Below, in pieces: positions 6,306 to 17,153 of a stretch of 64,000 nucleotides of DNA. How positions within the stretch are numbered: the stretch's first letter is position 1; every line of letters starts with the position of its first letter. The stretch is from the NCBI GenBank assembly GCA_001574975.1, contig KQ965746.1, positions 443,812 to 507,811 on the forward strand, given 5' to 3'. A program made the position numbers and the translations under genes. The notes beneath the pieces were generated by a model. It had not been told where the DNA came from, did not search any database, and was given only the letters and a program-made list of their open reading frames with translations. The DNA is from Gonapodya prolifera JEL478 (lineage: Eukaryota > Monoblepharomycota > Monoblepharidomycetes > Monoblepharidales > Gonapodyaceae).

Positions 6306-8472
6306 ATGAAGACCTGGGACGAGCCAATCGCTGTTGTTGGAATTGTGAGTTGGAGGAGACACGCCCCAGAAACTTCCGGTGGAGACGAGCTCGGCTCTTC
6401 ATCACCCCGTGTTCATCGTCAATACCGGCGGGGGCGCTTGTCGCCTATTGCACTACCCTCATGAGCGCTCTTTAGAATCAATTTGCGTGTGGCCCTTGTC
6501 TGTGTGCCCATTGTCATTCACCCCTCGTCGTCTTCCAATTCGATTCAGGCATGCCGACTTCCAGGCGGAGCGGAGACACCCGACAAGTTTTGGAAGGTGC
6601 TTTCAGCTGGAAAAGACATCAGGTAATTTCACCACTCTCATCATTGTGGGGAGCGAACCCAACAAGCTTCATTGATACCCAGAACCGGACCACCCAACGA
6701 CCGATGGAAGACCAAAATCACTGAGAGTGCCCCTATTCGAGGAGTGTACATTCCGGATGTGGACAAATTTGATCCCGAGTACTTCCACCTCAGCGACAAG
6801 GAAGTTCTCGACATGGAAGCCCATCAACGCGTCGGAATCGAAGTCTGCGCAGAACTTATGAGAAATTGCGGCTATTGGGACGACGCAGAGCGCAAAGCTC
6901 AGAAGGGCAAGGACGACGTGGGACTGTACATTGGGCTTGCTCATGCCGACGGAACCTCGCTCGGCCTCCAAAACGAGATGTCTCCATACTCGCTCGTGGG
7001 ATTCCTTCCATTCGGAACTGCAAATCGCATCTCGCACTGCCTCGGCATAAAAGGCCCTTCTATCAACGTAGACACTGCGTGCTCCGCTTCCCTAAGTGAG
7101 TGGAATGAAGAATCGTTTTGTGCGAGGTGAGAAACGCTAAGACGCCTTCAATTTCAAATAAGCTTCCGTGCACGTTGCGTGCGAAGCTCTTCTTCTCGGA
7201 GATTGTGACGCCGCAATCGCCGCTGGTGTGAACATTGTCACAAATCCTGTAAGCTCTACGTTCCTTTGGAACTGAATCCACTCCTCATATCTCTTTCTAT
7301 TCTTACCCCGTCTTGAAATCAGTCCGCTTACACCGCTCTGTGGAACCTGGGTGTTCTTTCACCGGACTTCTGCATCAAGGCCTTCGACGCCAAGGGAAAT
7401 GGCTACATGCGGGGGGAGGGATGTGGCGCCGTTATGCTGAAACGCCTGTCAGATGCCGAAAAGGATGGTGACAACATTCTTTGTATCATCAGAGGAACTG
7501 GTGCCGGTCATAACGGGCTTTCCCGAAACATCGCCGCTCCATCGGTAAGGCCTTATGCCACCTTTCAAATGCTGTTTCTCGAGATTTTACATACGTTTCT
7601 AGATCGAAGGTCAGGGCAGAGTTATCAAAGATGCCCTTGAGCGTGGAAAGTTAACGCCAGACGACGTCGACTACCTGGAAGCGTAGGTACCAAGTTAGTT
7701 GTGGGGCGTTCATCCAACGTATAACTCATGTTTCCATTAATCTGTTCAAGTCACGCGACTGGAACGAAATCCGGTGACCGCAAAGAACTTCAAACCGTCC
7801 AAGAGCTCTACATTGCCAACCAGAAGCGTGAGCGACCCATCGTTCTGGGAGCGGTAAAAAGCATGTACGGTGAGTTGCAATGATTGAAATGACAATGAAC
7901 GGCTCCGATATCCTAATATTCGGGTTAGGTCACTCGGAGGGAGCCGCCGGAATCACTGGTCTCATCAAAGCGATCCTCGTTCTTCTCCACCGCGAGGTCC
8001 CGCCCAATATTCACTTTGACGAGATCCGACCTGAAGTCAAGATCGATGTTTCGAAAATCGTCATTCCGACAGGGTCATCTTATTCGCTTGCAGATCGGCC
8101 CTTCCCCATCCGAGCAGGAGTGAATTCCTTTGGAGCAGGCGGTACAAATGCACACGTCCTCATCGAAGAAGTGAAGGTGAAAGCGCCTCCCACCTTTGGT
8201 GATTACACCTACAACAAGAAGTGAGTTGGCGATTTTCGTGAACCGCATCATCTGAACCATCAAACACGTCTCTGGGTCGTTGCAGATACCTTCCCATGAT
8301 TCAACAAAGAGGATCCTATTACAAAACGAAGCAAATTAGAGAATGGGAGGGGTCGGTGGATGACGAGAAACCCGCGAAACCCGCAGAAAGTGTTCCATTC
8401 GCTCTCCAGGTCACTGGAATCGCCCTCACCGCAGCAATTGCCGGGTTTGTTTTGGGGCGTGTAATAAATTAA
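6306..8472 (+). CDS. Free-standing polyketide-type ketosynthase with C-terminal membrane anchor
   Basis: Decarboxylating condensing enzyme of the beta-ketoacyl synthase family. Nine exons (6306-6344, 6549-6622, 6683-7095, 7163-7248, 7323-7544, 7603-7682, 7751-7869, 7929-8220, 8286-8472) close to 503 residues. It opens with [15 protein letters not shown], typical of modular PKS ketosynthases. All three catalytic residues are present: Cys171 in DTACSAS, His306 in EAHATGT and His346 in GHSEGAAG; the spacings of 135 and 40 residues are those of PKS KS domains. GAGGTNAHV closes the KS fold. No acyltransferase, ACP or reductase domain follows; the protein instead ends with about 50 polar residues and a hydrophobic segment at 480-500 ([15 protein letters not shown]), a likely tail anchor. 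Neighbours are unrelated, so there is no biosynthetic cluster. Product and partner carrier are unknown. Confidence 0.9.
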
Positions 8473-8503
8473 ATTCAGATGGAACTTGTACAATTGTGAT
8501 GGT

Positions 8504-8715
8504 AGGGACCTTGCGCAAAATATCATTCGGCACTTTTCACTGATGTCAAACAATTTGCCAAGACGCAAGGTGAGAAATTTGGGAATGAGGATAAATTCGA
8601 ATATGTTTTATTAATAGTTTAGAGTATACTTGATGAAGCTGCTGCTTTAATGGAGGAGAATAACTATTTTTTACATGAATGAAAATTGCTGAAGGAAATT
8701 CTGCGCAAGGTCCCT
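8504..8715. repeat. Inverted repeat, 14-bp perfect arms
   Basis: The 14-mer agggaccttgcgca at 8504-8517 recurs as its exact reverse complement at 8702-8715. The similarity continues weakly inwards (about 7 of 11 bases). The arms are ~184 bp apart in the intergenic stretch after the ketosynthase. They could form a long hairpin in a transcript or be the remains of a small element; no transposase or target duplication is seen. Confidence 0.6.
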
Positions 8716-8764
8716 GGTATCAAAACTATCGTTCATTTTATCAACAAAACTACTTCCTCCCAAA

Positions 8765-14541: not shown

Positions 14542-14705
14542 ACATCTCTCGTTTCTCGAATTCACAGTGGAAAATATATTGCTGATGTATTCACATTTCA
14601 ATACTCTCAAACCCGTCAATCGGACCATATCCCGATCCACTGTCCCTCTCCTTTCATCCTCATCCTGCGCATCAGTCGATCTCACCCTCGCCCAAGCTCG
14701 CCAAC

Positions 14706-17153
14706 ATGTCCAACGCCGCTCCGCCGCCTGTGTCACCACAGCTCGACGCCGCCATCAAGGGGACGCAGGCGGCGATGGCCCAGCTCATAAAACGGACGCC
14801 GCTGACGTCTAAGCTTCTCGCGAAACCGCCATTCAGATTTCTCCACGACCTCATCACGGAGGCGATGCGTTCATCAGGTTTCGCAACCGGACTGTACTCG
14901 GACGCGGAGCTGAATTCCGAAAATGTCAAGGTGCGCTCATGGAACAGAGATTTCAGTTCATTACATGCGCACTGCAGTCCAAAATTGTCGGGGGGAAGAG
15001 TTTCACCTCATCTCATTCTCATCTTCTCAACACAACATAACCCTTCCGCCTCTTCACATTCACAGGAGAAAGATGCCAAGATCGCATGGCTTGCAAAAAT
15101 GGCTGACTGCATCGCTTTTACTCTCGGAGAACCGGTTCGCCTCAACCCGAACAAAGTGGTGGCTGGATTGGATCCTGAGATTACAAATGAGTTTCTGCAG
15201 CAGCTATCGAGGGCTTCGCAGGTACTTTATACCGTTGTACAGTTATTGGGCTCTGGTACTCAGATGTCTGGGGTTTCTTGTCCACCCGTCTCACTGTACT
15301 AAGATGGACGGTACGGCTGCAGTTAAACGAGTTCTCGGAGGCGAGCGTCAGAGGTAAGTCACTCGGTCTTCTTCTTTTGTCTCTGAAGAAAGACCATTCT
15401 TTATCCCCCTTTGTGACAGACCGTCGGCGAAATCCTCGTCACCTGACAAGGTTTTGGTTGACAAAGACAAAGCACCACCGCTCCCCACACCGACGCCAGT
15501 CGCCCCTCCTCCTACCACAGCCACAGCGACCACGTCGTCTTTGCGCCACAAGAAGGATTCGGAAAAGGACCGAGAAAAGGAAAAGGACAAGTCATCTCCA
15601 TTGGCGTCGAAAGACGGTAGAGGTCCCAAAAGGTGAGATATAAGGAGCTGTCGCTTCGAGATCATCTTAACCTCTATCTAACTCTGTTTATCAGTTCGCT
15701 TAAAGATTCAGCAAAGAAAACGTCGGCGTCGTCAAATGCCTTGACCACTTCCCGATCTTCTAACCAGGCCTTGTCCCCATCTGGCGCCACGAAGACCGTC
15801 CCCGCTCCCCAGACGTCTTCCTCCCAGTCACAACGCCGCTCCTCCAAAACACCGGCCCAACCTGCGGCACTACCACCGCCGTCTCCAATACCCCCACCAT
15901 CTGCGGAACTTCCTGTGCCGTCACCCATCACCCTAGCTGATGAAAGACCCACTACACCACGTGCCGCTCAACTTGAGCCTGAGCCCCGTCGCACACCTGT
16001 CACAGACACCCGTTCCGCCGACCTGGACCCTCCCGACCAGGACACGTTGGAACAAACAAACCCCACGGTGGCTGCGTACCTGCCCATACCTTCATCCGCG
16101 CTACTACCACACCAGCAGCCGCCCCCTAATGATGCAGATGCTGTGCCGCAGGTCTCCCCGTTTACGGACGTTGAGCCGACAGCTCCTACCTCGGGGGAAC
16201 AGGTGTCGGCCCAAGACGACGAGCCCAGGGTAACAGGACTGGTCGCTAGACGACCCATTCGGCCAACGACGGCGAGAGCGCCCCCACCGAGGCGGAATCC
16301 TGTAGTGGACGCAGGGGATGCTTGCAACAGGTTGGTAATTCCCGTGTATTCCCAGGATGCAAGCTTACTCGGTGTATTTGACCAATTAGTGCGCCTCCAC
16401 CGCCCGTCATTGTGGAGGATGGGCCCGTGTCACGACCTGGGGACTCTGGTGATGCCGACGACGACGAGGAGTTTGTGAAGGTCGCGGGGCCTGGGATGGT
16501 GCTTGCTGCGGGGCTTCAAGAGGGGTTTGGAGGGCCTGGGGGGATGACTGGTGCGGGGTGGGAAGAAGGTGCGTCCAGCGTTGTTGCCTGGATGGGGGTG
16601 CGGAGCATTCAACCTGCATCGAACCATATATTCTCTGACACGGACACACCAGCCGACGCCACTCGCTGGCAGGATCCCTCTCCGTCAACGGGTGACCACC
16701 GAACGCGCCTTGCCCGTCTTGTTGATCAAGTCCGTACCGCGGCGGCGGCAGCGGGACCGTTGGCAGCGCTACTCGAGCTCGCGGGGGAGGACGTGGATGG
16801 GATGGGCGGGGAGGAGGAGCAGTGGCGAAAGGAGGCGGGGGAATGGGAGGCGAGATGGAGAGGGGAGGAGAGGTATGTTCAGAGATGGGGGGGCGGTGAA
16901 AGTTCGTATCGTGATGTGACGGGCATTGGGGTCCAGGGAAACTAAGGCCGCCCTGGAACCTGTTGAACGTCAGATCCGTGAGGTCGAAGAACTGATCGCG
17001 GCTGAGGTAAGCGATCCGGTTCCTCCTCCTCTTGAGCTCTGTCTCACCATGCGCGACAAGCACGACCGTATATCCTCCCTTAAGGCCACGGTGTTTCAGA
17101 ACGAGACGGAAATTGTGAGGGTAGCCAAGAGCGTCATCGGGGGCTGGAAGTGA
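14706..17153 (+). CDS. IFT54: Intraflagellar transport protein IFT54 (TRAF3IP1)
   Basis: IFT-B subunit that binds tubulin/microtubules and kinesin-2 and is needed to build flagella. Exons 14706-14930, 15066-15221, 15304-15353, 15420-15632, 15695-16330, 16390-16568, 16653-16872, 16937-17006 and 17061-17153 close to 486 residues. The N-terminal calponin-homology-like domain matches closely: RTPLTSKLLAKPPFRFLHDL, GFATGLYSDAE, EKDAKIAWLAKM and VVAGLDPEITNEFLQ. A Lys/Ser/Pro-rich linker follows. The C-terminal coiled coil keeps the family pattern (GPLAALLELAGEDVDGM; EPVERQIREVEELI; ISSLKATVFQNE). The last intron (17007-17060) is a multiple of three and has no stop, but removing it restores exact family spacing. 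The 84-nt intron at 16569 is less certain for the same reason. This is direct evidence for a flagellum. Confidence 0.93.

Follow-up and report, generated by a model that had tools for sequence, protein, structure and literature searches.

What might a ketosynthase (KS) of the PKS type do when it is encoded on its own and ends in a hydrophobic segment? The question is raised by a gene at positions 6306-8472 of the forward strand of a 64 000-nucleotide stretch of DNA from Gonapodya prolifera JEL478 (the whole stretch being the window in what follows; contig C16). A preliminary description, made from the sequence of the window, had presented its product as a tail-anchored, free-standing KS that could elongate lipids with the mitochondrial or cytosolic ACP, or be a new kind of condensing enzyme. 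In the following, the gene and its relatives in the same genome are described, and the possible roles of the encoded proteins are weighed against the fatty-acid machinery found around them.

The window gene and its two paralogs

The gene consists of nine exons and eight introns, all of the GT-AG type, which lead to a single protein of 503 residues. Exon 1 (6306-6344) provides the start codon and 13 residues, no in-frame Met being seen by eye in the stretch upstream of the gene, and is followed by exon 2 (6549-6622) and by exon 3 (6683-7095), which carries the active-site Cys171 (codon 7080-7082). After exons 4 (7163-7248), 5 (7323-7544) and 6 (7603-7682) come exons 7 (7751-7869) and 8 (7929-8220) with His306 (codon 7752-7754) and His346 (codon 7931-7933), respectively, both placed by hand count from the exon table, and finally exon 9 (8286-8472), which encodes a conserved QQRG-YYKT segment, a spacer, a hydrophobic segment and the TAA stop codon. 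The catalytic residues belong to the motifs TACSAS (from residue 169), EAHATGT (from 304) and GHSEG (from 345), so that the nine-exon model returns the Cys-His-His triad at exactly the positions previously claimed. Pfam recognizes the two halves of a KS, namely ketoacyl-synt (218.5 bits, residues 6-249) and Ketoacyl-synt_C (118 bits, residues 258-375), and nothing more above cut-off, in agreement with a free-standing enzyme: AT and ACP are absent from this KS-only protein, and its KS domain begins at residue 6, without an N-terminal extension.

Profile searches of the genome were carried out exon by exon on the 47.56-Mb assembly (207 contigs), and each absence reported here is to be read as a failure to find. 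PF00109 matched nine stretches and PF02801 six, all at the same three loci, i.e. the window gene, one gene on contig C1 and one on contig C128, and no further locus was found with either model. As assembled by hand, the C1 gene encodes 541 residues and the C128 gene 526, each in 12 exons with GT-AG borders at every intron, and the C128 protein has a 17-residue N-terminal extension. By BLASTP, the window protein is 56% identical to the C1 and 45% to the C128 protein, which are 39-40% identical to each other, and the catalytic Cys and both His residues are invariant in all three. Pfam detects only the KS in each protein, except for C1, where Thiolase_N narrowly passes its cut-off, on the KS fold. 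The gene structures are also related: seven of the eight introns of the window gene match at least one paralog in alignment column and phase, the exception being the intron after exon 2, and four match both, including the first (after exon 1) and the last (before exon 9). The observation of a free-standing PKS-type KS with a hydrophobic C-terminus is confirmed, and it is stronger than first stated, the genome holding a family of three free-standing KS genes and not a lone one. That they are decayed remnants of a larger PKS, as might be thought of proteins to which no other PKS domain is fused, is highly improbable for three intact genes with 39-56% identity and shared introns, in two of which (window and C128) the C-terminal segment has been kept.

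The hydrophobic C-terminus noticed in the preliminary description contains the hydropathy maximum of the whole protein: the best 19-residue stretch, which begins at residue 480 of 503, has a mean of 1.98, a value reached by 109 of 20 000 random 35-residue samples of the protein's own composition. On the basis of hydropathy and of these shuffles, a putative tail anchor is placed at residues 480-500 (8398-8460, forward strand). A similar tail is present in the C1 paralog (mean 1.80, reached by 195 of 20 000 random samples), and the C128 tail is hydrophilic (19 544 of 20 000) and lacks the hydrophobic segment. Whether the last exon belongs to the gene had been a doubt from the beginning. Its first part (21 residues) matches the C128 stretch PYSMIQQRGTYYKTEQVIGWE, the QQRG-YYKT segment being common to the window and C128 copies and lost or changed in C1, and the intron that precedes it occupies the same column and phase in all three genes. 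In the light of the introns shared with the paralogs, the first and the last included, a misprediction of the last exon is unlikely, at least through QQRG-YYKT. A continuation of the gene into further PKS domains, also considered at the outset, was rejected, since the stop codon lies in exon 9, PF00698 has no match genome-wide and the neighbours scanned contain no PKS domain. Tail anchors are expected as a single hydrophobic segment in the last 30 residues of a protein without an N-terminal signal, and the hydropathy profile, taken by itself, agrees with this arrangement; in two of the three genes the segment is apparently a membrane tether. The domain of a tail-anchored protein faces the cytosol.

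Kinship to other ketosynthases

In a search of the PDB the best single-stretch match of the window protein is CurL (300.6 bits), with DEBS at 294.6 and Pks13 at 278 bits; the first-ranked entry, 7zma, sums to 485 bits over two KSs. psoA and LovB, which we take to be fungal, score 257 and 244 bits, respectively, and the first chain named fatty acid synthase 215 bits. With a profile of the three paralogs the values become 350 (CurL), 311 (LovB) and 306 bits (psoA). Among NCBIfam models, none of the 23 matches reaches its own model's cut-off, and the type I PKS model (394 bits) is well ahead of FabF (153 bits; cut-off 493.75), which bears out the PKS-type assignment.

When 84 980 species genomes of bacteria and archaea were scanned, 343 stretches matched. 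Relatives are encoded by 124 of them, and the 80 best of these 124 do not exceed 41% identity in the best segment. For 78 of the 80 bacterial KSs the surrounding frame measures over 660 residues from stop to stop, and for the remaining two (L028 and L050) the fetched DNA ends after 513 residues. A first tree was built from 83 rows (the three genes and the 80 bacterial sequences); the program flagged its bootstrap as unsettled and C128 as a long branch. The three genes cluster together in this tree (100/100), with a stem length of 1.28 changes per column, so that the separate KS clade that the preliminary description had hoped for is present within this genome. A second tree, in which E. coli FabF was added to the three genes and to 30 bacterial rows selected by hand from the 80, again returned the group (98/99); most of its deep forks are poorly supported, which leaves the attachment of the group unsure, and the branch of FabF measures 7.5 changes per column.

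Grouping with ordinary Cem1-type enzymes would have changed the picture. A Cem1/FabF-type identity was, however, rejected with E. coli FabF as the comparator, owing to a FabF score far below both its cut-off and the PKS score, and to the very long FabF branch. A bacterial donor was also discarded, as in neither tree do the genes attach with support to any bacterial group and identity does not exceed 41%, and so was a viral origin, none of 146 pattern matches in viral contigs being a relative. As a side observation, one record titled as a Klebsiella pneumoniae MAG (L020) contains a KS whose frame is at least 2846 residues long and which groups with a proteobacterium (L027; 99/60), and its title may be wrong.

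The three proteins have in common HATGT and KS(M/L)(Y/F)GH. Among the 80 bacterial KSs, 78 have HGTGT, one has HITGT and one gives no match, and K(S/T)..GH fits 77, all of them with Asn at the M/L site, and not the other three. These differences would suit a KS fold put to another use, such as acyl transfer, thioester hydrolysis or binding without catalysis. Such a role is nevertheless unlikely, in view of the invariant catalytic Cys and His residues and of the fact that KSM.GH is also present in E. coli FabF, which is a true condensing enzyme, as it is in the window and C1 (not C128) proteins, besides the NSFG found in FabF and in all three.

Fatty-acid machinery, gene neighbours and proposed function

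Fungi are generally taken to make fatty acids with FAS I. In this genome searches with PF08354, PF18325 and PF00698 gave no match, and a Cem1/FabF-type KS was not found with PF00109, PF02801, TIGR03150 or E. coli FabF, TIGR03150 also failing to list the window KS itself. With TIGR00128, one FabD/Mct1-like locus was detected on contig C36, in three pieces and below the family cut-off. PF00698 missed this gene; as a Pfam hmmscan of two of its exons was also empty, the miss is traced to the use of the model on split exons, and the sensitivity of the FAS I absence is limited accordingly. The PP-binding search returned two loci, interpreted as Lys2-like (C8) and as a mitochondrial-type ACP (C108), respectively; there is no cytosolic ACP among these matches, and the sole soluble ACP looks mitochondrial. 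An acetyl-CoA carboxylase (ACC_central) is found on C3, and ELO gave 22 matches at about eight loci. Two weak FabF-like matches (C1:927307 and C54:184396) were dismissed by eye as thiolases. The thiolase-like genes at these places (L102, C1:927 kb; L126, C54:184 kb) are, again by eye, very similar to each other on different contigs, and could reflect a recent duplication or split haplotypes.

Consistent with the earlier claim that no biosynthetic cluster surrounds the gene, Pfam detected no PKS, FAS or carrier domain in 16 neighbouring ORFs, i.e. six in the window and ten of the 32 listed in the 20 kb upstream of it, and no PKS/FAS cluster was seen by eye in the remaining ORFs of the 79 listed in window 1-26000. 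The window neighbours are a RING-variant protein, an SH3 protein with a hydrophobic stretch, a GST-domain piece, a family III CoA-transferase and, below the Pfam cut-off, an RF-1-like piece; the upstream ORFs yielded an F-box, a radical-SAM and a RING protein, seven being without match. The window also encodes a MIP-T3 domain protein (14586-15299), presumably an intraflagellar-transport protein, which is consistent with a flagellated organism. Directly past the KS stop codon, two 57-base arms (8494-8550 and 8669-8725), 79% complementary to each other, flank 118 bases and make up an inverted repeat at 8494-8725, which may represent a small mobile element or give the transcript a long hairpin at its 3' end.

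Of the 17 ORFs listed near the C1 gene, ten were scanned, with matches to aminopeptidase, trypsin, MOSC, trehalase, UVB-sensitive and IQ proteins; for C128, eight of 29 were scanned, with matches to Bud13, to a PhzF-like protein and, weakly, to IQ, EF-hand and TBC. PKS, FAS and carrier domains are absent from the 10 C1-neighbour and 12 C128-neighbour ORFs scanned, and among these neighbours 'biosynthesis' occurs only in the name of the PhzF-like protein, at a distance of about 11 kb from the C128 gene. Head to head with the C128 gene lies an acyl-CoA-ligase-like gene (L010 6095-9777), the two ATGs being 574 bases apart. The pieces of this ligase-like gene score 24.8 and 23.9 bits with AMP-binding (cut-off 29.9) and 34.1 bits with AMP-binding_C (cut-off 24.5), with one piece giving no match, and the first exon at L010 6095 together with the downstream pieces is a candidate for one such gene. 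Its product could supply acyl-CoA. AMP-binding genes are, however, common in this genome (142 candidates, 14 of them scored), so that the pairing may be due to chance, and the ORF head to head with the window gene (ATG 6018) is of another kind, no AMP-binding-type domain being seen in it.

The reading that we prefer, with a confidence somewhat short of even, is that of an active free-standing condensing enzyme which sits at a membrane facing the cytosol and probably makes lipid chains from CoA thioesters. A KS of type I PKS ancestry would be tethered by its C-terminal tail anchor, the catalytic domain being cytosolic; Cys171 would receive an acyl group, and His306 and His346 would aid the decarboxylation of a malonyl thioester, leading to the new C-C bond and to a 3-ketoacyl chain for a membrane lipid or a simple polyketide lipid. 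Since neither an AT nor a carrier domain is fused to the KS and the searches gave no cytosolic ACP, its substrates are most probably CoA thioesters, which acetyl-CoA carboxylase and acyl-CoA ligases would provide, as for ELO or plant KCS. In favour of this proposal are the full triad in all three proteins, the intact frames over 9-12 exons with shared introns, the hydrophobic C-terminus of two of them, the lack of a PF00698 match, a PP-binding complement made up of the Lys2-like locus and the mitochondrial-type ACP, the failure to find FAS I (PF08354, PF18325) or further KS loci in a genome that has acetyl-CoA carboxylase and about eight ELO loci, and the ligase-like gene next to C128. On the other hand, PKS-type KSs of known mechanism use ACP-bound malonyl, and the genome does contain both an ACP and a FabD/Mct1-like gene; the anchor was judged by hydropathy only and is missing from C128; the ligase neighbour may be fortuitous and has no equivalent at the window gene; and the absences come from an exon-by-exon search in which PF00698 overlooked the FabD-like gene.

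The same FabD-like gene, along with the type I PKS ancestry, would fit a trans-acting KS that makes a specialized small molecule (e.g. a beta-keto lipid or a pyrone) with carrier and transferase encoded elsewhere. This alternative is possible, if rather doubtful, as the carriers found are limited to the Lys2-like protein and the mitochondrial-type ACP and as the neighbours scanned at the three loci (16, 10 and 12 ORFs for window, C1 and C128, respectively) are devoid of PKS, FAS and carrier domains. With the mitochondrial ACP and the Mct1-like gene present and a Cem1-type KS not found, the window protein could instead stand in for the missing KS of mitochondrial fatty acid synthesis. The partnership with the mitochondrial ACP suggested in the preliminary description is, however, disfavoured, and the stand-in role improbable: the protein has no N-terminal extension, a tail anchor would put it on the wrong side of the membrane, facing the cytosol, when the ACP looks mitochondrial, and a Cem1 gene could escape an exon-by-exon search. 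For a mitochondrial role, the anchorless C128 copy, with its 17-residue N-terminal extension, is the better candidate.

Taken to its full extent, the preferred reading of a membrane-tethered condensing enzyme would mean that a eukaryote without FAS I and Cem1 builds its fatty chains by a CoA-using KS family of PKS origin. We regard this as unlikely, but, if true, it would add a further eukaryotic condensing system to FAS I, mitochondrial FAS II and ELO/KCS. The three KSs may be an unrecognized way of building lipid chains, and could conceivably replace FAS. With FAS I and Cem1 not found, and with three intact PKS-type KSs, two of which are apparently tethered, chain extension by a lone KS on CoA at a membrane becomes testable.

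Comparison with known systems

With the KSs of bacterial type I PKSs (CurL, DEBS, Pks13) the three proteins share the Pfam KS domain, the triad and their best scores, at no more than 41% identity to the bacterial loci. They differ in that AT, ACP and other domains are absent, in HATGT and KS(M/L)(Y/F)GH, in the long stem of their group, and in the QQRG-YYKT segment and the hydrophobic tail, each found in two of the three. Trans-AT or AT-less PKSs are multi-domain assembly lines with ACP, and the KS of fungal FAS I alpha is part of the FAS2 polypeptide along with ACP, KR and PPT, whereas the window protein is a KS only, with no ACP or other domain fused. Mitochondrial KAS (Cem1/OXSM) and FabF are likewise stand-alone KSs, and E. 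coli FabF shares KSM.GH with the window and C1 proteins and NSFG with all three; the window protein, however, has no N-terminal targeting extension (by eye) and a FabF score of 153 bits. ELO and plant KCS are membrane condensing enzymes that use CoA thioesters, the ELO fold being unrelated to that of KS and KCS being kin only within the thiolase superfamily. The three genes are not members of either family, and the likeness, that of a membrane condensing enzyme acting on CoA, is a proposed one.

Within the titles, opening parts of abstracts and passages of the open-access literature, where subscription journals are mostly not represented, no tail-anchored or stand-alone KS is reported for chytrids, phrases such as 'free-standing ketosynthase' do occur, and 'ketosynthase' and 'tail-anchored' appear together only in a Streptomyces genome paper. 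The two chytrid KS domains of one survey are accompanied by AT domains, as far as its available text goes (PMC7466969), and in the accessible portion of another study of early-diverging fungi most species have at most two PKS or PKS-like genes (PMC6784888). On chytrid FAS, the available text of PMC3234268 is silent. Glomeromycotina are described as lacking FAS1 and FAS2, with lipids thought to be host-derived (PMC10629195). In a pelagophyte alga, the smallest modules of trans-AT modular PKSs consist of KS alone, inside larger proteins (PMC10366177).

Compared by description, dinoflagellates, which have many copies of single-domain type I KSs, also present free-standing, type I PKS-like KSs in a eukaryote (PMC7159223). 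Most of theirs carry a specific N-terminal domain (68 of the 98 standalone-KS transcripts of Gambierdiscus polynesiensis), whereas the window KS starts at residue 6; in the accessible text of that paper the dinoflagellate KSs have neither signal peptide nor peroxisome motif, though DeepLoc places them mostly in the peroxisome, and the word 'transmembrane' does not occur (PMC7159223). The three-gene family described here provides a case to be compared with these as yet unexplained dinoflagellate enzymes.
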